Assembly: GCA_021846045.1 (NCBI GenBank)
Contig: JAJZCM010000009.1
Location: 1 to 45,871, forward strand
Length of the DNA stretch: 45,871 nucleotides
Direction: 5' to 3'
From: a bacterium
GTDB lineage: Bacteria; Elusimicrobiota; Elusimicrobia; UBA1565; UBA9628
The notes beneath the pieces were generated by a model. The model worked only from the letters and a program-made list of their open reading frames with translations. It was not told the DNA's origin and ran no database searches. Below, piece by piece: positions 7,370 to 19,359 of the stretch. The first letter of the stretch is position 1. Every line of letters begins with the position of its first letter. The position numbers and the translations under genes are program-made.

Positions 7370-7674
7370 TGGTAAAACGCGGAAGATTTGGAGGAAGCGG
7401 GAGTTTCTCCGGCCTTAATCGGGCCAAAGCGCGCTTCATACTTTTCGATATTGTCTTTAAGCGCCCACAAAAATCTTTTGGCATGAACCGGAGAAGAAAT
7501 AATCCTAGACAAGACCTTGGTCTTGGGCGACTGCGGCTGTAAAAGCAAAAAATCAAAAAAGAACTCCGTTTCGCTATGCGCGACCAGCGCGAGATTGGCA
7601 TAAGCCCCCCGAGCCGTCGCTTCGTCTATTTCAATCTGGATTTGTTGAGCCTGAACTTTATCTCCGTTTTCCAT
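7366..7674 (-). CDS. DUF3467 domain protein
   Basis: A 102 aa soluble protein matching the small DUF3467 family: an N-terminal Q/I-rich strand (QQIQIEIDEATARGAYANL), then AHSETEFFFDFLLLQP and a segment with SRIISSPVHAKRFLWALKDN. The family is widespread and its function is not established. It sits 6 bases after the SurA-N-like gene and overlaps cinA by 4 bases (GTGA). Its position in an envelope operon gives no mechanism. Confidence 0.85.
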   Translation of the reverse strand: MENGDKVQAQQIQIEIDEATARGAYANLALVAHSETEFFFDFLLLQPQSPKTKVLSRIISSPVHAKRFLWALKDNIEKYEARFGPIKAGETPASSKSSAFYQ

Positions 7675-9880: not shown

Positions 9881-12373
9881 TTAAGTCCTTGGCGAACCTA
9901 AAATAATAGGCAGCGTCAAAAAGGCATTGCCTCGGCGGACAATCAAATTCGCCGGATCTCCGGGGCGGAGATGAACCAATGCTTTCTCTAAAGAAGGGAA
10001 ATTTGGGGTGTTAATCACCATCGGCAAGCCGCCAACGGGAATAAGGAGTATTCGCGTGATGATATCGCCTGGCTGAAGCTTAGCCGCAGCCGCGGGAGAA
10101 CCCGGGCGCACGGCGTCAATCTCCACTCCGCTACCCGCGCGCAAAAAGGCGATAATTCCCAGGTGGGCAAAGTCAATGTTGCCGACTTCCTGATATTCCG
10201 AGACTGCGTCCAGAAGCTCGTTGGCGGCAATCGCAAAGCCGATGCCGACCGAACCTCCCTCTTGGCCAGGCGTATAAATCGCGACATCCATGCCGACGAG
10301 TTCACCCTTGGAATTCAAGAGGGGACCGCCGGAATTGCCCGGATTGATGGAGGCGTCGGTCTGAATATAATCATAAAGAAATTCCGGGCCGTGCCCCAGG
10401 CGGCTGACAATGCCCCGGCTCGCAGTTAAACCCACGTCATAAGGGTATCCCAGCGCAACCACTTTTTCCCCCATGGCCGGAGAATTTCTCGAAATCGGAA
10501 TATAAGAATAATTTTGACCCATCGGTAAAGATGGAAGCCGTAAAACCGCGATGTCTTTTTGATGGTCAATAGTCAAGACTTGGGCCTTGCTGGGAATGCC
10601 GTTAATTAAAATATTCAAAACAGTTCCGGGCAGGACATTGCCCGCGACGTGGGCATTGGTCAGCGCGATTCCAGATGGAGAAATAACGTAACCTGTTCCC
10701 AACCCGCGGTTATCCCCTGAATAGACCTTAAGAACGGCGGGTTTGGCTTTTTCGATAATTTGCTTTGGCGATAGATGAGGCAAATCGTTCGGAGCATCAG
10801 GCACGGAAAATTTTTCAATGGCGGGCGCGCTTAAAACCGTGGCGGGAAGGGGTAAAGAAACGGCGGGGAGCGTTGCCGGAGAGTTCCAATTCGCGCGCAG
10901 TTCGCTTCCGGAAATTCCAAGCAAAGCGGCAATTAAAAGAGCCGGCAAAACCAATTTCATGCTTTGGCGTGACTTCGGTAAACTCCATTGTCCATTTTTA
11001 AATTTCTGATACAGGCTTTTGACGATCTCAAAGCCCAAGACGCCCAAAGACGCGGCGGCCAAGGCAATCTTATAATCATTGAAAACCGCCGATGCGCCCG
11101 TATAGGTTAAAAAAATCCAGGCGCCTAGAAGCCAGAGGAAATTATAAACGTAGTGGGCAACGGTTGAGGAAATCAAAGAGCGGCTGCGGTAAACCACGAA
11201 AGCCAGGGCCAGCCCAAAAATGCCCTGTTGGGCGAGAAACTCTGGGTGAACGCCCCAAACCGCAACATGAGCCTTGACAAAGAAAATAGCCGAAGAAGCG
11301 GCCGCGATAAAAAAGGCATTAGAGGTTATTTTTTGTCCCATCCGCTTCAAAGCCGCCGGCAGGCGATTCTTAAGCGGAGAAAAGAAATCCGGCAAGGAAT
11401 TTAAACCTTGAGACAAAAATCTAAAAACGGGGCGGGCAAAAGCCGCCGCCAAATAAAAGCCGCCAAATAAAAGCCCCCGATAATGAATTTCTTCCAAAGC
11501 CGCCTTTGAAAAAAGCCCCCAGGAAAGAAAAGACCCCGCGTGAGCGCTCAGGGCCGCCTGAATTTGTGCCGGACCATCGTGAATCAAAAGCTCGGCCCTT
11601 CCGGATTTTTGAAGCGCATCCGGCGAAAGCCCCAAAAGCCAATTGAGCTTTAAATAGTTCACCCACACGTAAACCATCAAATGGGAAATTCCCTGCATGA
11701 TGAGGCCCCACTTAAGGCCGTAGAGAATCTGGCCGCCGATTCCCATTTTTTGATAGGACGGCCCGCCATAGGGATCCGGATTCTGCGCTTGCGGAGTAGA
11801 AGGTTCAGGCTTAGACGCGTCTAAAGAAGGGCTTTCTTTTTCCAGAAGGTTTTCTCTAGTCTTGGATACGGCTTGCCCCTCAACTGAACCCGCTTCCAGT
11901 TTTCCTGCGCCATCCTTTTCTCCGAAAAAACGATCAAGAAAACTTTTGGAAGAAGAAAAGCGGTTTGCGGCCAAAACATTTCCTACTCCTTTTTTAAATT
12001 TCTGAAAACCTTTTTTAAATGAGCGGAAGGATTTTTCTTTTGAATCTTCTCTTCCCGGCTCCACATTCTTAGAAGGCTCAGCGGCGTTGCGGGCGATTCT
12101 TAACTGCTTTAACTTTTCATCCGCTTTGGGCCAAAAGCCTTCTTTAATCAGTATTGAAGGCTTCGGAGCTTCCATGAGATCGGGGTTTGTTCCCACGGAT
12201 GGGATGTGCATCGGAATTATTGGGGACAGATCCAGATCGTGAATGTCGGCGGCCCCGGCGCTTTCTTCGGCTCCGCCACCCGCCCAAGCCAACGGAGAAA
12301 GACTTCCCCAAACAAGAGTCAAGGACAAGAGAATGGATAAAATGGGGCGGAAACGCATTTTTAGAGAGTTCAT
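9881..12373 (-). CDS. Fusion of a CPBP intramembrane protease and an HtrA-like serine protease with PDZ
   Basis: An 830 aa exported or membrane protein with two different protease modules. After a signal peptide (ending near ...SPLAWAGG) comes a polar stretch to about 205. The CPBP (CAAX-protease-like) domain follows, in several membrane spans: EEIHYRGLLFG near 293 gives the EExxxR motif, FFVKAH near 366 the second, and AHYVYN near 406 the third. A last span near 475-490 leads to a trypsin-like domain with LTNAHV (His near 571), HQKDIAVLRL (Asp near 605), NPGNSGGPLL (Ser near 679), then one PDZ domain to the end. All catalytic residues of both modules are present. A role in envelope protein quality control or signal cleavage is inferred. 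A conserved stem-loop lies 35 bases upstream of the ATG. Confidence 0.9.
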   Translation of the reverse strand: MNSLKMRFRPILSILLSLTLVWGSLSPLAWAGGGAEESAGAADIHDLDLSPIIPMHIPSVGTNPDLMEAPKPSILIKEGFWPKADEKLKQLRIARNAAEPSKNVEPGREDSKEKSFRSFKKGFQKFKKGVGNVLAANRFSSSKSFLDRFFGEKDGAGKLEAGSVEGQAVSKTRENLLEKESPSLDASKPEPSTPQAQNPDPYGGPSYQKMGIGGQILYGLKWGLIMQGISHLMVYVWVNYLKLNWLLGLSPDALQKSGRAELLIHDGPAQIQAALSAHAGSFLSWGLFSKAALEEIHYRGLLFGGFYLAAAFARPVFRFLSQGLNSLPDFFSPLKNRLPAALKRMGQKITSNAFFIAAASSAIFFVKAHVAVWGVHPEFLAQQGIFGLALAFVVYRSRSLISSTVAHYVYNFLWLLGAWIFLTYTGASAVFNDYKIALAAASLGVLGFEIVKSLYQKFKNGQWSLPKSRQSMKLVLPALLIAALLGISGSELRANWNSPATLPAVSLPLPATVLSAPAIEKFSVPDAPNDLPHLSPKQIIEKAKPAVLKVYSGDNRGLGTGYVISPSGIALTNAHVAGNVLPGTVLNILINGIPSKAQVLTIDHQKDIAVLRLPSLPMGQNYSYIPISRNSPAMGEKVVALGYPYDVGLTASRGIVSRLGHGPEFLYDYIQTDASINPGNSGGPLLNSKGELVGMDVAIYTPGQEGGSVGIGFAIAANELLDAVSEYQEVGNIDFAHLGIIAFLRAGSGVEIDAVRPGSPAAAAKLQPGDIITRILLIPVGGLPMVINTPNFPSLEKALVHLRPGDPANLIVRRGNAFLTLPIILGSPRT

Positions 12374-12484: not shown

Positions 12485-15400
12485 CTAAGGCGTTGCGTTG
12501 ACGTCCGCGCCAGCGGCAATGAGGGCCTTGACGATATCTGTCCGGCCATGGAGGAGAGCATACATAAGAGCGGTATCGCCATACTCGTTTTTGGCATTGA
12601 TGTCCGCGCCAGCGGCAATGAGGGCCTTGACGATATCTGTATGGCCATTGATTGAAGCCCACATAAGAGCAGTCCAGGCGCTATTGTCTTTGGCATTGAT
12701 GTCCGCCCCTGCGGCAATGAGGGCCTTGACGATACCTGTATAGCCACTGATTGCAGCATTCAAAAAAGCGGTATCGCCATAATTTTTTTCGGCATTATAA
12801 TTTCTTTTGGCATTGACGTCCACGCCGGCGGCAATGAGGGCCTTGACGATATCTGTATGGCCATTGATTGAAGCATTCATAAGAGCGGTATTGCCAAGCT
12901 CATTTTTGGCATTGACGTCCGCGCCGGCGGCAATGAGGGCATTAACGGTATCTGTATGGCCATTGATTGAAGCATTCATAAGAGCGGTATTGCCAATCTC
13001 ATTTTTGGCATTGACGTCCGCCCCTGCGGCAATGAGGGCCTTGACGGTATCTGTCTTACCATCTTTTGAAGCATTCACAAGAGCGGTATTGCCATGCTTG
13101 TTTTTGGCATTGACGTCCGCGCCGGCGGCAATGAGGGCATTAACGGTATCTGTATGGCCATTGATTGAAGCATTCATAAGAGCGGTATAGCCATATTTGC
13201 TTTCGGCATTGATGTCCGCCCCTGCGGCAATGAGGGCCTTGACGGTATCTGTTTTACCATCTCTTGAAGCCCACATAAGAGCGGTATTGCCAAGCTCATT
13301 TTTGGCATTGACGTCCGCGCCTGCGGCAATGAGGGCCTTGAGGCTCTTGATTGAAGCATTCATAAGAGCGGTATTGCCATACTTGTTTTTGGCATTGACG
13401 TCCGCGCCGGCGGCAATGAGGGCCTTAATGGTATCTGTATGGCCCTTGATTGAAGCATTCATAAGAGCGATATTGCCATATTTGCTTTCGGCATTGATGT
13501 CCGCCCCTGCGGCAATGAGGGCCTTAACGGTATCTGTATGGCCCTTGATTGAAGCATTCACAAGAGCGGTATAGCCATATTTGCTTTCGGCATTGATGTC
13601 CGCGCCGGCGGCAATGAGGGCCTTAACGGTATCTGTATGGCCATTTTCTGAAGCTCTCCCAAGAGCGGTATCGCCATCCATGCCTCTGGCATTGATGTTC
13701 TCCCCTGCGGCAATGAGAGCATTGACAGCAGCTGTATCTCCACGGGATACAGCCTCCATGAGAGGCGTCGCCGCGACTGGAGCCGCGCTTGCCGTGGTCC
13801 CCGCCGGAGCGGTCGTCGGAATCGCTGCCTTGGGATGATCCTGCGGCTCGGCCTTGGCCGTCACCGCCGAAAGCCCCAACGCTTGAGCCACCGGAGCCAT
13901 CGCCGCACGGATGATGTCCTCGTGCGACTTTTCCCATGCGGGGAACGCGCTTAAGAAGGTCTGGACGATGTCGTCTTTGGTGTCCGGAAAGCGGCCCAAA
14001 CGGCTGACCACGCGAAACAGCGACTGGACGCTCGGAGGAACCGGCAAAAGCCCTTGGCGATACGAGTCGCGCAATGAATCCAATGCCTTCTGCAAAGCCT
14101 CCAGAACTGGTCGCTCGATGGACAATCCCTGTTGCCGAGCATAGCTTTCCACAAGCCCCATTTCTTCTTCAGCCGGAAGCGGCTTCAAGATATGTGTGCT
14201 GAATCGGTCCAAGACCTCGCCGGAAAACTCCTGCGCCTCATACTGCGCCCGCGCCGGCGTTCCCATCGCCACCACGCCAAAGCCTGACTTGGCATCGAGG
14301 ACCTTCCCGCTTGGAAGGAGAATTTGTCCAAATTGCAAAACGTTGTTGAGCAGGCTCACCGTGCCGGGATCTTCCGGCTTGGTCACTTCATCCACCAGCC
14401 AGATCGTGTTGCGCTCCACCGCCCGCTCGAGAGGATACGGCGGCCAATACGTCGCGTCGTTTTTAAGCTCGGGCTTGCCGATGATGTCTTGCCCGCGCGT
14501 TTGGCGGGTAAAGGTCTGCTCTTCCGGCTTCATCCTTAATATGGCGTAGAGAAAATGTCCCATCAGTTGCGTCTTGCCTGTGCCCGTCTCGCCCAAGACC
14601 AGGCTGTGGCGGCCCAAGGCGCGGTCTTTCATCATCGCCCACCATAACCGCAGGTTGGATTGTAGATGCGGTATGTCGCGGTAGCTCGCGGGAATCTCGC
14701 TTGATTTTAAATCCCCCAAGGGCAATTCCACAACACCCCACTGATCGTTGCCCAGCCGAACCTTGCCTGCTTTTTCGTCAATTTCAACATCCGGCAACTT
14801 AAAATCAGCCGGTCGCGGCTGGCCCTGTAAATTGTGCTGCTTGAGATACTCATCCACCAGCTCCTTCTCGTTGGCCTCCAAATACTCCGTCGGATAAACC
14901 GTGTCGAATATCTCGCGGAAATAGGGGAAGTCTTTTGGAAATTTCTTGATGTGCCAGGCCATGTTCATCACGCCGCGCGTGGACAAGGGCCGAGGCAGAT
15001 GGCCTTGCCGATAAGAAGAACGCAGATCATTGGCCAACCCTACCATCTGCTCGATCAAGGGCCTCAGCTGCGCTTTCTTCGCCGCGTTCTCGTCCAAGAA
15101 AACGGTGTCCATGACGAAATCGGTTTCATCCTTGGCCTTCATGTAATCCACGTCCAAGACATTAAAGCGCCGAATAAAGTCGGCCGGCATCTCCTGCACC
15201 GTATAGCTGCGGTTGGGAGGATTGACCAAAGCGATGGCCCTAAATTTCGGGTTGCCCACGACCGGATTATCTTCCCCCGGCAAGGTCTCCTGGCGATTTT
15301 GCAAGATGGTGTTCAAGCTGTTTAAGATGCCGATCTGAAGCGGCTTGTTGGGCTCATCTAATATCACCCAATCCCCGGCTTCCGCGCCCTCATAGAGCTC

Positions 15401-16378
15401 GGAATGCTTGCGGCTCGTCTCGCCCGCGCGTTCTTCACCCAGCGTGGTTCGATACCTCAAATCCTTCTCGTTGGTATGGGCATGAAAGCTCATCACCCGA
15501 ACCCCTTGATTGAGCAGACCCGCCAGCGTGTAGACCAATGTGTTTTTTCCAGTTCCCATGTCGCCTCTAAGCATGAGATTGGTCAGGCTCGCATCGGGAT
15601 CAGACAGATATTCCATCATAGTCGCCAAGGAGCGCAAATTATCCTCGGTCAGCTTGACCATGAAGGGCTTTTCACCAACGGCGACCTCCAAAACGTCCGG
15701 ACGAAGAAATTTCACACGCGGCGCCCGCGCCCCGCCAGATCCCATCTCCATAGTCCGCACAACCTTGCCAAACTTAAGCTCCAAAAATTTCTTGCCGTCC
15801 TTTTCGATGTAATGAAAGGGGCTGTCTACTGAACGTGGCTCATACTCCTTAAGCCCGCTCGGCAAGATTTCTAGGCCGGCCTCTGAACCTGAAACGACCG
15901 AATCCTCAAGACCGGCGACCACCTTGCCCGCTCCATCAAAATGTTTTGTGAACTCCTGCAAAGCCGCTACGGAATCGCCGCCGGAGGAAAGCGCTTCGCC
16001 AACGGCGCTGTTGAGCCTCTTGGCCGTCGTCAAAAGCTTACGGAAATTCTCCGGCCCGATGACGGAAGAGATCGCCTCGCGTTGCTCCAAAATGGCGTCC
16101 GGATGCGCCACTAAAGTCCGGGTCTTAAGCGGTTCGGATTGGATAGCGTCTAACTGCTCAGGAGAGAATAGAGGGACTTGGGGCAAAAGCGGTTGAAAAA
16201 GAGGGTTGCTCCCGATCGTGTCGCCGCCGCCAATGGGCATCCCGCCTAAAGAATTTCCGGAGAAGGATTCGGGCGCCGCCTCCATGCCTTCCGCTCCGAC
16301 CGCCCATGCCGGCTGCCCGACAGAAGCGCACAGGAAAGAACAGACTAGAAATATCGCCAGCGCTTTCTTTAAGGTCAT
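12485..16378 (-). CDS. Exported tandem AAA+ (CobS/MoxR/midasin-type) ATPase with C-terminal ankyrin array
   Basis: The start at 16378 overlaps the VWA stop by 4 bases (ATGA) and gives a 1297 aa protein that begins with a typical signal peptide (KKALAIFLVCSFLCASVG, cleavage near AWA). A linker (30-240) contains FDGAG. Two AAA_5-type domains follow: Walker A GDMGTGKNT near 271-279 with Walker B WVILDE; then GETGTGKTQ near 594-602 with IWLVDE, sensor AMGTPA and arginine-finger-like LDRFS. An alanine/proline-rich linker leads to 13 ankyrin repeats (about 870-1297). AAA_5 ATPases normally remodel targets with a VWA partner, here the gene just upstream. Predicted export of an ATPase is odd, since ATP is not expected in the periplasm. 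A longer start at 16462 lacks a proper signal peptide at its N-terminus. Confidence 0.88.
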   Translation of the reverse strand: MTLKKALAIFLVCSFLCASVGQPAWAVGAEGMEAAPESFSGNSLGGMPIGGGDTIGSNPLFQPLLPQVPLFSPEQLDAIQSEPLKTRTLVAHPDAILEQREAISSVIGPENFRKLLTTAKRLNSAVGEALSSGGDSVAALQEFTKHFDGAGKVVAGLEDSVVSGSEAGLEILPSGLKEYEPRSVDSPFHYIEKDGKKFLELKFGKVVRTMEMGSGGARAPRVKFLRPDVLEVAVGEKPFMVKLTEDNLRSLATMMEYLSDPDASLTNLMLRGDMGTGKNTLVYTLAGLLNQGVRVMSFHAHTNEKDLRYRTTLGEERAGETSRKHSELYEGAEAGDWVILDEPNKPLQIGILNSLNTILQNRQETLPGEDNPVVGNPKFRAIALVNPPNRSYTVQEMPADFIRRFNVLDVDYMKAKDETDFVMDTVFLDENAAKKAQLRPLIEQMVGLANDLRSSYRQGHLPRPLSTRGVMNMAWHIKKFPKDFPYFREIFDTVYPTEYLEANEKELVDEYLKQHNLQGQPRPADFKLPDVEIDEKAGKVRLGNDQWGVVELPLGDLKSSEIPASYRDIPHLQSNLRLWWAMMKDRALGRHSLVLGETGTGKTQLMGHFLYAILRMKPEEQTFTRQTRGQDIIGKPELKNDATYWPPYPLERAVERNTIWLVDEVTKPEDPGTVSLLNNVLQFGQILLPSGKVLDAKSGFGVVAMGTPARAQYEAQEFSGEVLDRFSTHILKPLPAEEEMGLVESYARQQGLSIERPVLEALQKALDSLRDSYRQGLLPVPPSVQSLFRVVSRLGRFPDTKDDIVQTFLSAFPAWEKSHEDIIRAAMAPVAQALGLSAVTAKAEPQDHPKAAIPTTAPAGTTASAAPVAATPLMEAVSRGDTAAVNALIAAGENINARGMDGDTALGRASENGHTDTVKALIAAGADINAESKYGYTALVNASIKGHTDTVKALIAAGADINAESKYGNIALMNASIKGHTDTIKALIAAGADVNAKNKYGNTALMNASIKSLKALIAAGADVNAKNELGNTALMWASRDGKTDTVKALIAAGADINAESKYGYTALMNASINGHTDTVNALIAAGADVNAKNKHGNTALVNASKDGKTDTVKALIAAGADVNAKNEIGNTALMNASINGHTDTVNALIAAGADVNAKNELGNTALMNASINGHTDIVKALIAAGVDVNAKRNYNAEKNYGDTAFLNAAISGYTGIVKALIAAGADINAKDNSAWTALMWASINGHTDIVKALIAAGADINAKNEYGDTALMYALLHGRTDIVKALIAAGADVNATP
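12488..13760 (-). repeat. Array of 13 ankyrin repeats, about 99 bp period, highly similar in DNA
   Basis: Thirteen units encode the ankyrin consensus (for example NTALMNASINGHTDTV and KALIAAGADVNAKN). Most units are 99 bp and nearly identical over long stretches of DNA, with changes at a few loop positions. One unit is shortened by four codons (around 13320-13365) and one carries an insert of about six codons (around 12785-12810). The strong DNA similarity points to recent expansion by slippage or unequal crossing over, or ongoing gene conversion. Long open frames on the opposite strand here are by-products of the repeat. Confidence 0.95.
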
Positions 16379-19359
16379 CGCGACCCTCGCCAGGCTTTTT
16401 TGAAAGTCGTCTCGACTATTTCGGCCCATTTCATCCCCAGCTCCGACAATTCTTGGGCCCAAAAACTGTAGGGCTGATATTTGTCATACATGTCCTGCGC
16501 CTCGGGCCCCGCCGCCAGGTTGGCGAAACGAATCTTGGCGTTCGTCGGGTCATCATAAATCGCCCGGATTTTTGACGCGATGTTCGCGCCGGGATCGCCG
16601 TCGCCGATATGAAGGAGCGAGTAGCTCGTATCGGGATGGCCCCGCATATCGTCGCGGATATCATCAACCGCTTTGTTCATCATGCGCACATCGCAGTTGT
16701 CTCCGTTGCATGTGTGCTGTATCTCGTTGATCCTCTCGACAACCTTATAAAGGATGGCGTCGCTTAAATCTTTGACCTGCATATAGTTGCCGATGATGGG
16801 CATCTGCGGATTTTCATTGTAAGCGACGACCCTGACCTCAACGCCGGGCTCATTTTTGAAAGCCAGCTTGAAGGCTTTGAGCGCCATGAGCAGCGCCCGC
16901 GCGGCGTGATCCAAGGAGGCGCCTCTGCCGATCCAGCCCATGCTGCCGCTGAGATCGAGCAAGAAGGTGATGCGGGCTTTGGGCCTCCCCGGCAGAAGCT
17001 CCTCTTTCATGATCCCGATCTTCGACTTATAATAAGGCAGGGCGTCCTCGTCCACGTCGCCATCAAAGAGCCCGTTAAGATCGCGGCCCAAGACGGTGGC
17101 CTTGAGGCGCTTGCGGATTTTGTAAGCCAAGGTATCGATCATGCCGCGGACCGGCTCCAAATACTCATCGAGCCAGCTTCTCTGGCCGGCTTCAAGCCCG
17201 CCGGATTTAATCTTCTCGATCTTGTCCTGGACGCTGCCCATAGAATCGGAAGTTCCTTGACTGCCCGCGGGATTGATTTCGCCGCCGCCGTCTTGGGATT
17301 GACCAGCTTCGCCCTGAGAATCGCCGGATTCTCCGGCCTGGCCTGGCTTGCCGGATGATTGTTGCTGCGACCAAGCCTTGAGCATCTGAGCTAAAGGATC
17401 ATCCTGGCCGGGCTGGTCTCCCGGCGCTGAATCTCCCTGTCCAGGTTTTCCCTGAGCGCCTTGCGAATCTTTTTGGCCGCTCTTAAGCTGATCACTCAAA
17501 TTTTTGGCGAGGGACTCAGCCTCTTGCGCCACTTCCTGAATTTTTCCCGCCTGCTCGGAGATATCCTTGGCCGTCTGTTCGATGCCGGTGGTCTTCTGGC
17601 GTAGCGAGCTTATCTCTTGCTCCTGGCCCTGGCCCAATTGTTTCTTAAGCGCCTCGGTCTGGCTTCGCAATTGATCGGATTGATTTTTCAGTTCGCGGCC
17701 CATCTCGCCCAACTGCTGGGCCTGCTCTTGCGTCTTATCGGCCGCGGGCGAAGAGGCCCCGCGCTTTAACTGCTCCGCCATTTGGCGAAATTCCTGGGCG
17801 GCTTGGTTGAGCCGCTCCGCCTGCTGATGAAGCTGTCCGGCCTGAGCGTCGAGCTCCTCGGCTTCTTTAGAGTTGATATTCCGAGCGCCCGTTTGAGAGC
17901 GCATTTGAGAGGCCTTCTCTTCTAAATCCTGAGCTTGGCTCTTGGCCTGCGCGGCTTCCTTAGCCAAGCGCGAAGCCGCCTGCTCTAATTGCTGAGCGAG
18001 GCCATCCGCCTTCTGATTTTGCTGCGGACTTGACTGGCTTTTGCCCATCGTCTTTCGAAACGCCTGCTCCTGCTTTTGCATCTGCTCCTGAATCTGCCGG
18101 CGCAGGTTCTCCCTCTGTTCGGGAGTCATCTCTTTGAGCGCCTTCTCGATTTCCTTCTGAGCCTGCTCCTTATTGGATCCCAGCTTGCCCTCCTGGCCCA
18201 TTTTCTCGAACATCTTCTGCGACATCGCCGCGTCCTCGGACTCTTCGTGGAGCTTTTGAAGCGTCGGCCAGATTTCGCGGCTGAGCTTATAGGCTTCCTC
18301 GGGGGAGGCCGAGGCGATCTTTTTTCGCAAGGCTCGCGTCTTCTCTAGGACTTCGAGAACACGCGGGTCTTTGATGCGGGAATCCTCTTGCCCCAACCGG
18401 CTTTCGTAAAGAGCCCCTTCCAAAAATTGCAGATAGCTTGGGAGACTCTTTAGGCTTTGCGCCGCGGCCTCACCCTCGGGATACTGCTCACGATTGAACG
18501 CCTCGAAGTTTTCATTGAGCCCCGGACGCTCCTTAAGGCCATTTTTCACCACGCGACCGGTTTCCATCGTGTCATAAAGCGTTTGGAATAAGCCGTTGGA
18601 CTGAAGCTCCGGCGCGATGAGATCGGGGCGGCTGTAGACGGCGCGAAAAACTTCCTGCATGAGATGCGCCATGGCCACGTCCTTGTTCGCGTGGCGCAGG
18701 TCTTCCGGCACGTAATGGATGCGGAGATTCTCGCCTTCTTTGACCAAACGCCAAGTCGGACGGTCGCCTTCCCATAACGGCTCCCAGGGCACGAGCTTGA
18801 GGCTTTCATCCCGCGTTATGCCGCGAGCGATTTTCTCTCCCAGGGACAGTATATCCCGCTCGGCGGCGGGATCAGACGCGCCGGCGCCGTCAAAATCAAT
18901 ACTGCGTTCCTTACTCGCGAAGCGAGAGCGTGCGCGGGCGCCTATGGGAATGATTTTGGGCACGCGCGTGGGCTCGCGCCGCTCTGAGGCCTGAGCGTCC
19001 GTTTTTGGAGCGGCGGATTTTAAAGCGGGCACAACAACTTCTTGCTCCAAGTCTTGGACTTGAGTTTTCTCTGCCGGAGAGGCAATGGGATCGGCCGCTT
19101 TGATTTCTTTCGCACTTTCCTCAATCAAACCCGAGGGCAACGCGAATTGGGGTTGAGAAAAATCTTCCAAAGGCGGCATGGCCGCCTGAAAAGAAACATC
19201 TTGAGGGTCTGGGGAAAGCGGCACGATTTCAATGGAAACCAGGTTTGCATTCTCAGGGGCCGGACGTTCTTCCGCCGAAAAGGCGGGAAAAGAGCAAAAA
19301 GCAATCAATAAGCCCGCAAGAAGGGCTTGTTTTTGGATTTTAATCCCGATCTGTTCCAT
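16375..19359 (-). CDS. Exported VWA (CobT/BchD-like) protein with long coiled-coil linker
   Basis: A 994 aa protein with a signal peptide (ALLAGLLIAFCSFPAFSAEE). Residues 30-170 are low-complexity and include a segment encoded by a palindromic repeat ([10 protein letters not shown]) followed by FDGAG. Residues about 170-420 are a globular region of unknown family; about 420-680 are a Gln/Ala/Glu-rich coiled coil; a Gly/Gln/Asp-rich linker follows. The C-terminal VWA domain has the metal site DLSGS at 802-806 and the later acidic loop GDGDPG near 920; the preceding RKRLKA...GLFDGDVDED region recalls cobaltochelatase CobT. CobT-type VWA proteins work with CobS/MoxR AAA+ ATPases; the tandem AAA+ gene follows with a 4-base overlap. 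Target unknown. The 5' leader has the conserved stem-loop. Confidence 0.88.
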   Translation of the reverse strand: MEQIGIKIQKQALLAGLLIAFCSFPAFSAEERPAPENANLVSIEIVPLSPDPQDVSFQAAMPPLEDFSQPQFALPSGLIEESAKEIKAADPIASPAEKTQVQDLEQEVVVPALKSAAPKTDAQASERREPTRVPKIIPIGARARSRFASKERSIDFDGAGASDPAAERDILSLGEKIARGITRDESLKLVPWEPLWEGDRPTWRLVKEGENLRIHYVPEDLRHANKDVAMAHLMQEVFRAVYSRPDLIAPELQSNGLFQTLYDTMETGRVVKNGLKERPGLNENFEAFNREQYPEGEAAAQSLKSLPSYLQFLEGALYESRLGQEDSRIKDPRVLEVLEKTRALRKKIASASPEEAYKLSREIWPTLQKLHEESEDAAMSQKMFEKMGQEGKLGSNKEQAQKEIEKALKEMTPEQRENLRRQIQEQMQKQEQAFRKTMGKSQSSPQQNQKADGLAQQLEQAASRLAKEAAQAKSQAQDLEEKASQMRSQTGARNINSKEAEELDAQAGQLHQQAERLNQAAQEFRQMAEQLKRGASSPAADKTQEQAQQLGEMGRELKNQSDQLRSQTEALKKQLGQGQEQEISSLRQKTTGIEQTAKDISEQAGKIQEVAQEAESLAKNLSDQLKSGQKDSQGAQGKPGQGDSAPGDQPGQDDPLAQMLKAWSQQQSSGKPGQAGESGDSQGEAGQSQDGGGEINPAGSQGTSDSMGSVQDKIEKIKSGGLEAGQRSWLDEYLEPVRGMIDTLAYKIRKRLKATVLGRDLNGLFDGDVDEDALPYYKSKIGIMKEELLPGRPKARITFLLDLSGSMGWIGRGASLDHAARALLMALKAFKLAFKNEPGVEVRVVAYNENPQMPIIGNYMQVKDLSDAILYKVVERINEIQHTCNGDNCDVRMMNKAVDDIRDDMRGHPDTSYSLLHIGDGDPGANIASKIRAIYDDPTNAKIRFANLAAGPEAQDMYDKYQPYSFWAQELSELGMKWAEIVETTFKKAWRGSR
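18902..18933. repeat. 32-base palindromic repeat, copy inside the VWA gene
   Basis: Matches 24401-24432 in inverse orientation at 31 of 32 positions. Its middle is a hairpin (CTCGC-TTC-GCGAG). Here it lies in frame and encodes [10 protein letters not shown] in the N-terminal linker of the VWA protein. Confidence 0.75.

Follow-up and report, generated by a model that had tools for sequence, protein, structure and literature searches.

A tandem AAA+ protein and a VWA protein with predicted export signals, and their patchy family in Elusimicrobiota

Two overlapping genes of an Elusimicrobiota genome encode an AAA+ protein and a VWA protein, both of which begin like exported proteins. What kind of machine would the two proteins form, and on which side of the membrane would it act? 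Concatenated six-AAA rings are known from eukaryotes, with a VWA domain in midasin and without one in dynein. With one-, two-, and six-domain versions side by side in a single bacterial family, it becomes possible to test how a one-chain ring arose; and if an export signal is conserved across an ATPase family, one would have to ask how remodelling driven by ATP proceeds outside the cytoplasm. In addition, the family described here gives a domain identity to some huge proteins of Elusimicrobiota that a recent survey left without a COG assignment (PMC11573180).

Results

The gene pair and its genomic setting

The window, which is the whole stretch of 45,871 nucleotides analysed, is one whole contig of a metagenome-assembled genome (G000; 2.0 Mb, 97% complete). 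The two genes are long open reading frames on the minus strand, and the four-base overlap reported in the earlier note is confirmed as an ATGA:

16375..19359, minus strand: VWA gene, 994 aa; signal peptide, CobT-N-like domain, Gln/Glu/Lys-rich coiled linker, VWA domain
12485..16378, minus strand: AAA gene, 1297 aa from ATG; signal peptide, AAA domains D1 and D2, 13 ankyrin repeats
16375..16378, minus strand: ATGA stop/start overlap that couples the VWA and AAA genes

The AAA gene starts at the ATG at 16378 (the ORF list had 12485-16462, from a TTG), and a Shine-Dalgarno-like GAGG is positioned 6 nt 5' of this ATG. Because the four genomes of the same genus (G001-G004) all lack the pair, it appears to be accessory in its genus. 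In G004, the block downstream of the pair, from the M1 peptidase to HtrA, is syntenic although the pair is missing. The GC content of the pair is 56%, compared with about 50%. The synteny and the raised GC point to an accessory pair that was perhaps acquired from elsewhere.

No operon partner conserved beside the pair is found in relatives, and this includes any conserved substrate gene. The HtrA/CPBP neighbour (9881-12373) is rejected as a partner, because each of the four genomes of the genus has it despite missing the pair; the downstream synteny that persists without the pair also counters it. The neighbour itself is a chimera, in which a signal peptide and a CPBP/Rce1-like membrane domain precede an HtrA trypsin-PDZ module.

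The tandem AAA domains and the ankyrin tail

The AAA protein carries two AAA_5 domains (Pfam, E 4e-38 for the protein) and a repeat tail:

14816..15658, minus strand: AAA_5 domain D1; Walker A GDMGTGKNT (15539-15565), Walker B LDE
13862..14680, minus strand: AAA_5 domain D2; Walker A GETGTGKTQ (14567-14593), Walker B VDE
12488..13780, minus strand: 13 ankyrin repeats (Pfam and repeat count)

The Walker A motif of D2 is canonical in the window protein; that of D1 has Asn in place of Thr/Ser. In the alignment of 16 tandem units, domain one reads GxxxxGKN, with the Asn invariant in 16/16 D1 rows, and domain two reads GKT/S. The arginine-finger positions of D1 and D2 are both invariant. Over deep divergence, the D2 Walker A, sensor, and arginine finger are conserved; the Walker B DE is retained in most members and is degenerate in some (SE in G214, DD in G216). 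Judged by its motifs, D1 appears to be without a textbook complete nucleotide site. The earlier claim of two complete AAA_5 domains thus stands for the number of domains and for D2, but not for the completeness of D1. The earlier note would have counted it against its own proposal if relatives had lost Walker A/B residues; this is seen in part, as the GKN of D1, and the change is conserved rather than decayed.

A count of repeats of about 33 aa each agrees with the 13 ankyrin repeats reported earlier (Pfam, 3e-87). The ankyrin tail is present on the AAA chain of the window member only, and relatives have WD40/NHL-like repeats instead. Tandem AAA domains plus ankyrins had been taken as the defining combination; the tandem is indeed old and conserved, but the ankyrin tail is local to the window member. 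Ankyrins are rejected as a core feature: in these genomes they form an abundant repeat family of their own, and ankyrin matches dominate naive searches.

The VWA protein

Downstream of its signal peptide, the VWA protein has three parts:

18148..18921, minus strand: CobT-N-like domain; zincin-like fold suspected
17230..18147, minus strand: long Q/E/K/S-rich coiled-coil linker
16381..17229, minus strand: helical finger and VWA domain; DLSGS at 16942-16956, MIDAS Thr replaced by Asn

A Pfam scan of the VWA protein itself gives no match; its VWA domain aligns with those of relatives that match Pfam VWA. The VWA profile (A3) matches the VWA domain of CobT (E 7e-10) and also midasin. With respect to the MIDAS consensus (DxSxS-T-D), the DLSGS metal site described earlier and the distal D are present, but Asn occupies the Thr position.

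The N-domain profile matches CobT at E 0.024, which is weak but motif-specific, and the CobT-N motif DAVEQARVEAIG is aligned between the two. Its match to TIGR01651 (6e-4, in 2/15 members) is weak. The N-domain contains HE.WH in seven relatives and HE[AS]LH in two, and the window protein has lost HExxH. A PDB fold search with the predicted N-domain model (pLDDT 86.8) gives nothing significant, the weak matches including several small zinc peptidases. A zincin-like domain is suspected, as a lead.

A tandem as one third of a ring

The tandem AAA profile matches midasin best (1e-51, also the best PDB match), then CobS (3e-11), as well as CbbQ and NorQ. Together with the match of A3 to the CobT VWA domain, this bears out the CobS/CobT likeness proposed in the earlier note. 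In the AAA tree, the D1 types form one clade (100/99) and the D2 types another (99/97); the two are old domain types. Domains 1, 3, and 5 of the six-AAA chains group with D1, and domains 2, 4, and 6 group with D2. A constraint that places the six domains in one clade is rejected (p 1.8e-40). The six-AAA chain is therefore a D1-D2 tandem in triplicate.

The predicted model of the D1-D2 tandem has a pLDDT of 82.7 and a pTM of 0.82. Its top Foldseek matches, across both domains, are neighbours in the dynein ring (TMq up to 0.63). As modelled, the tandem has the geometry of in-ring neighbours and not of two stacked tiers. Because AAA rings are mostly hexamers, the window tandem would be one third of a ring, with three chains making a pseudo-hexamer.

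Layouts and distribution of the family

The search covers 235 genomes of the class and 341 of the phylum. The same gene pair, which the earlier note proposed to look for in relatives, belongs to a patchy, Elusimicrobiota-wide family with fused and split layouts; CobT-N is found in 25/341 phylum genomes. A scan of named genomes, limited to exact peptide patterns, gives no match with the window protein alone and four Elusimicrobia records with patterns from the alignment.

Three layouts are distinguished. In layout A, one giant chain (3,800-6,500 aa) carries CobT-N, VWA, AAA, and AAA in this order and in many cases NHL/WD40 repeats as well; such fusions are present in five class genomes (G048, G049, G062, G214, and G216), plus G326 and G051. 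In layout B, a signal peptide, a probable beta-propeller, and one AAA domain are followed by CobT-N and VWA, fused or, in G015, split. In layout C, CobT-N, VWA, and six AAA domains form one chain of 5,192-6,090 aa (G290, G292, and G294). The window pair is a split layout A, with ankyrins in place of NHL/WD40. Tandem and six-AAA members alike have their VWA domain ahead of the AAA domains. The midasin plan that had been seen as divided over two proteins is present in spirit, in that relatives join VWA to tandem or six AAA, with the VWA N-terminal and not C-terminal.

Export signals

Both proteins of the pair begin with a predicted signal peptide:

19273..19359, minus strand: predicted signal peptide of the VWA protein, MEQIGIKIQKQALLAGLLIAFCSFPAFSA, followed by EE
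16301..16378, minus strand: predicted signal peptide of the AAA protein, MTLKKALAIFLVCSFLCASVGQPAWA, followed by VG

Signal peptides were called by a simple in-house rule and inspection, not by SignalP. The rule is positive for both proteins of the pair, in agreement with the earlier note, and for 18/23 family chains; in the controls, it flags 0/13 cytoplasmic proteins from the window and 12% of N-termini after shuffling. Almost all chains whose N-terminus is intact look exported. The five rule-negative chains are signal-like by eye, and either have no nearby ATG or fail the charge or cleavage-region condition. At both starts of the window pair, positive charges precede and acidic residues follow the hydrophobic stretch, and the sites are of the AxA type. 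The split pairs of G000 and G042 have a signal-like segment on each half; the VWA half of G015 has none of its own. Other AAA proteins of G000 with intact N-termini have no such signals, with the exception of one M50-Clp chain.

Between the signal and the last AAA domain, no TM segment is found in the pair of G000, in the small chains with a propeller and an AAA domain, or in the G290, G292, and G294 chains. The G049, G214, and G062 giants have internal TM-like segments, and their topology is ambiguous. As signal-like N-termini recur across the family, on both halves of the split pair included, the export suggested in the earlier note holds as a prediction, and export is the better-supported prediction for the location of the pair.

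The M50-Clp chain (L101, G000:C68:2531-8146) is a protein of 1,872 aa with a signal peptide, an M50-type membrane peptidase (HEWAH), a ClpB-like AAA domain, and an FGE-sulfatase-like tail, and is possibly a new membrane AAA protease. L113 is also flagged by the signal-peptide rule and looks like an ordinary membrane protein.

Discussion

A proposed mechanism and its alternatives

With a probability of roughly 0.55, the pair is a ring-forming AAA+/VWA remodeller of the CobS/CobT, NorQ/NorD, and midasin type, Sec-exported or tethered to the envelope. Three AAA chains would form one ring of six alternating D1/D2 modules, in which D2 (GKT) would be the catalytic motor and D1 (GKN) probably regulatory or weakly active. 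The family placement and the tandem geometry favour such a ring of six, as would be expected for AAA domains of the pre-sensor II insert clade with a docking VWA partner. The finger that precedes the VWA domain would dock in the ring pore, as in NorQD (PMC13036017). ATP cycles would twist the VWA domain against the N-domain and, via the long linker, pull on the substrate to which the CobT-N domain and the MIDAS are bound. The ankyrin tail may select targets, as propellers may elsewhere in the family. The least certain part is action outside the cytoplasm and its ATP supply there; we know of no ATP availability in the bacterial periplasm. At somewhat less than even odds, the family comprises exported, ATP-driven, midasin- or dynein-like rings made of six single-AAA chains, three tandem chains, or one six-AAA chain, the last by triplication of D1-D2 in parallel to midasin.

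The same remodeller could instead work on the cytosolic side, whether in the cytoplasm itself or at the inner membrane's inner face, its N-terminus being misread, an inverted anchor, or skipped, and ATP supply would therefore be no problem. All the characterised AAA_5/VWA systems known to us are ATP-dependent and act on the cytosol side, NorQD being one example (PMC13036017). Odd-looking TM segments in a few giants fit this location, as does the M50-Clp chain, which bears a signal peptide and in which several TM-like segments could return the AAA domain to the cytoplasm. However, the flanking charges and AxA-type sites are oriented for export, the signal recurs through the family and on both halves of split pairs, and the stretch from signal to AAA is free of TM segments in the pair of G000, the small chains with a propeller and an AAA domain, and the six-AAA chains. 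We consider a cytoplasm-side remodeller unlikely. If the ring is outside the cell, it could also be a pseudo-ATPase scaffold that assembles without ATP turnover, as periplasmic ATP is not known, D1 has GKN in all members, and the D2 Walker B is degenerate in G214 and G216. A pure scaffold would need none of the D2 GKT/S, sensor, and arginine finger that are kept, nor the Walker B DE that is mostly kept, which makes this reading very unlikely.

Export signals combined with ankyrin or propeller readers would also suit an effector that enters a protist host or prey and remodels or extracts targets with the ATP available inside that cell. In accordance, huge Elusimicrobiota proteins are linked to host-associated life (PMC11573180), and the presence of the family is patchy and lineage-specific. 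We regard an effector as quite unlikely, since neither a secretion system nor an effector signature can be tied to the family and chains of 5-6.5 thousand residues are hard to deliver. The nearest families insert metals, and the earlier note accordingly proposed a new chelatase; a complex that chelates or inserts metals in the manner of CobNST or NorQD is highly improbable. CobN (PF02514) is absent from G000 and 13 other carrier genomes, with control genomes positive, so the pair is not a canonical chelatase; BchH is not found in these 14 genomes either. Among the genes identified in the window, none is for cobalamin, chlorophyll, or nitric oxide reductase.

Comparison with known systems

AAA+/VWA pairs are a known kind. 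CobS/CobT of the aerobic cobaltochelatase (CobNST) likewise combine an AAA_5 protein with a partner that has an N-domain, long linker, finger, and VWA domain. However, CobS has a single AAA domain and no export signal, whereas the window pair has two AAA domains per chain, an ankyrin tail, signal peptides on both proteins, and no CobN. NorQ/NorD similarly pair a MoxR-clade ring with a VWA partner that has an N-domain, a linker, and a C-terminal VWA domain (PMC13036017), but have a single AAA domain, no export signal, and insert FeB into cNOR. Midasin (Rea1/Mdn1) has six concatenated AAA domains, against two in the window protein, and a VWA domain, as do G290, G292, and G294; the family differs in its VWA domain before the AAA block, six AAA domains as three tandem copies, export signal, and CobT-N.

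MoxR-vWA ternary conflict systems share MoxR AAA+ and vWA with the window family, in long chains and sometimes with beta-propellers (PMC7159879). This assignment is rejected: the AAA proteins scanned have no bpMoxR (PF20030) match, and no VMAP/iSTAND/FtsH third component is seen. PF14213, also considered as a Pfam candidate, is uninformative. Human CLPB/SKD3 combines ankyrin repeats and AAA+ in an envelope space, the mitochondrial intermembrane space (PMC9934407), but its AAA is Clp-type, its ankyrins are N-terminal, and it has no VWA partner. Within the reach of our searches, there is no description of the predicted export signals, of the tandem as a putative ring unit, or of bacterial six-AAA chains whose VWA domain is N-terminal.

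Unusual family members

In G015 (L080:5470-5560), the AAA and VWA halves are separated, in the -1 frame, by an A10 run before G TAA, and relatives are fused in frame; the break is either programmed slippage or an assembly error. In G217 (L156, contig C145), a lone in-frame stop at 7584-7586 separates a VWA chain (2,233 aa) from an AAA chain (1,280 aa). Tandem arrays of signal peptide-propeller-AAA paralogues, with a signal peptide on each, are present in G036 (L041) and G041 (L042). In G062 (L076, contig C24), a single chain has three AAA domains together with WD-like repeats, the CobT-N and VWA domains, and an EETLFR motif resembling that of CPBP membrane proteases. The N-terminal ~700 aa of the G049, G214, G290, G292, and G294 chains contain, after the signal, a common domain with INIQDLHCNPEVQRNI / EDIHLNEEAQRNMA, which is perhaps TraB/ChaN-like.
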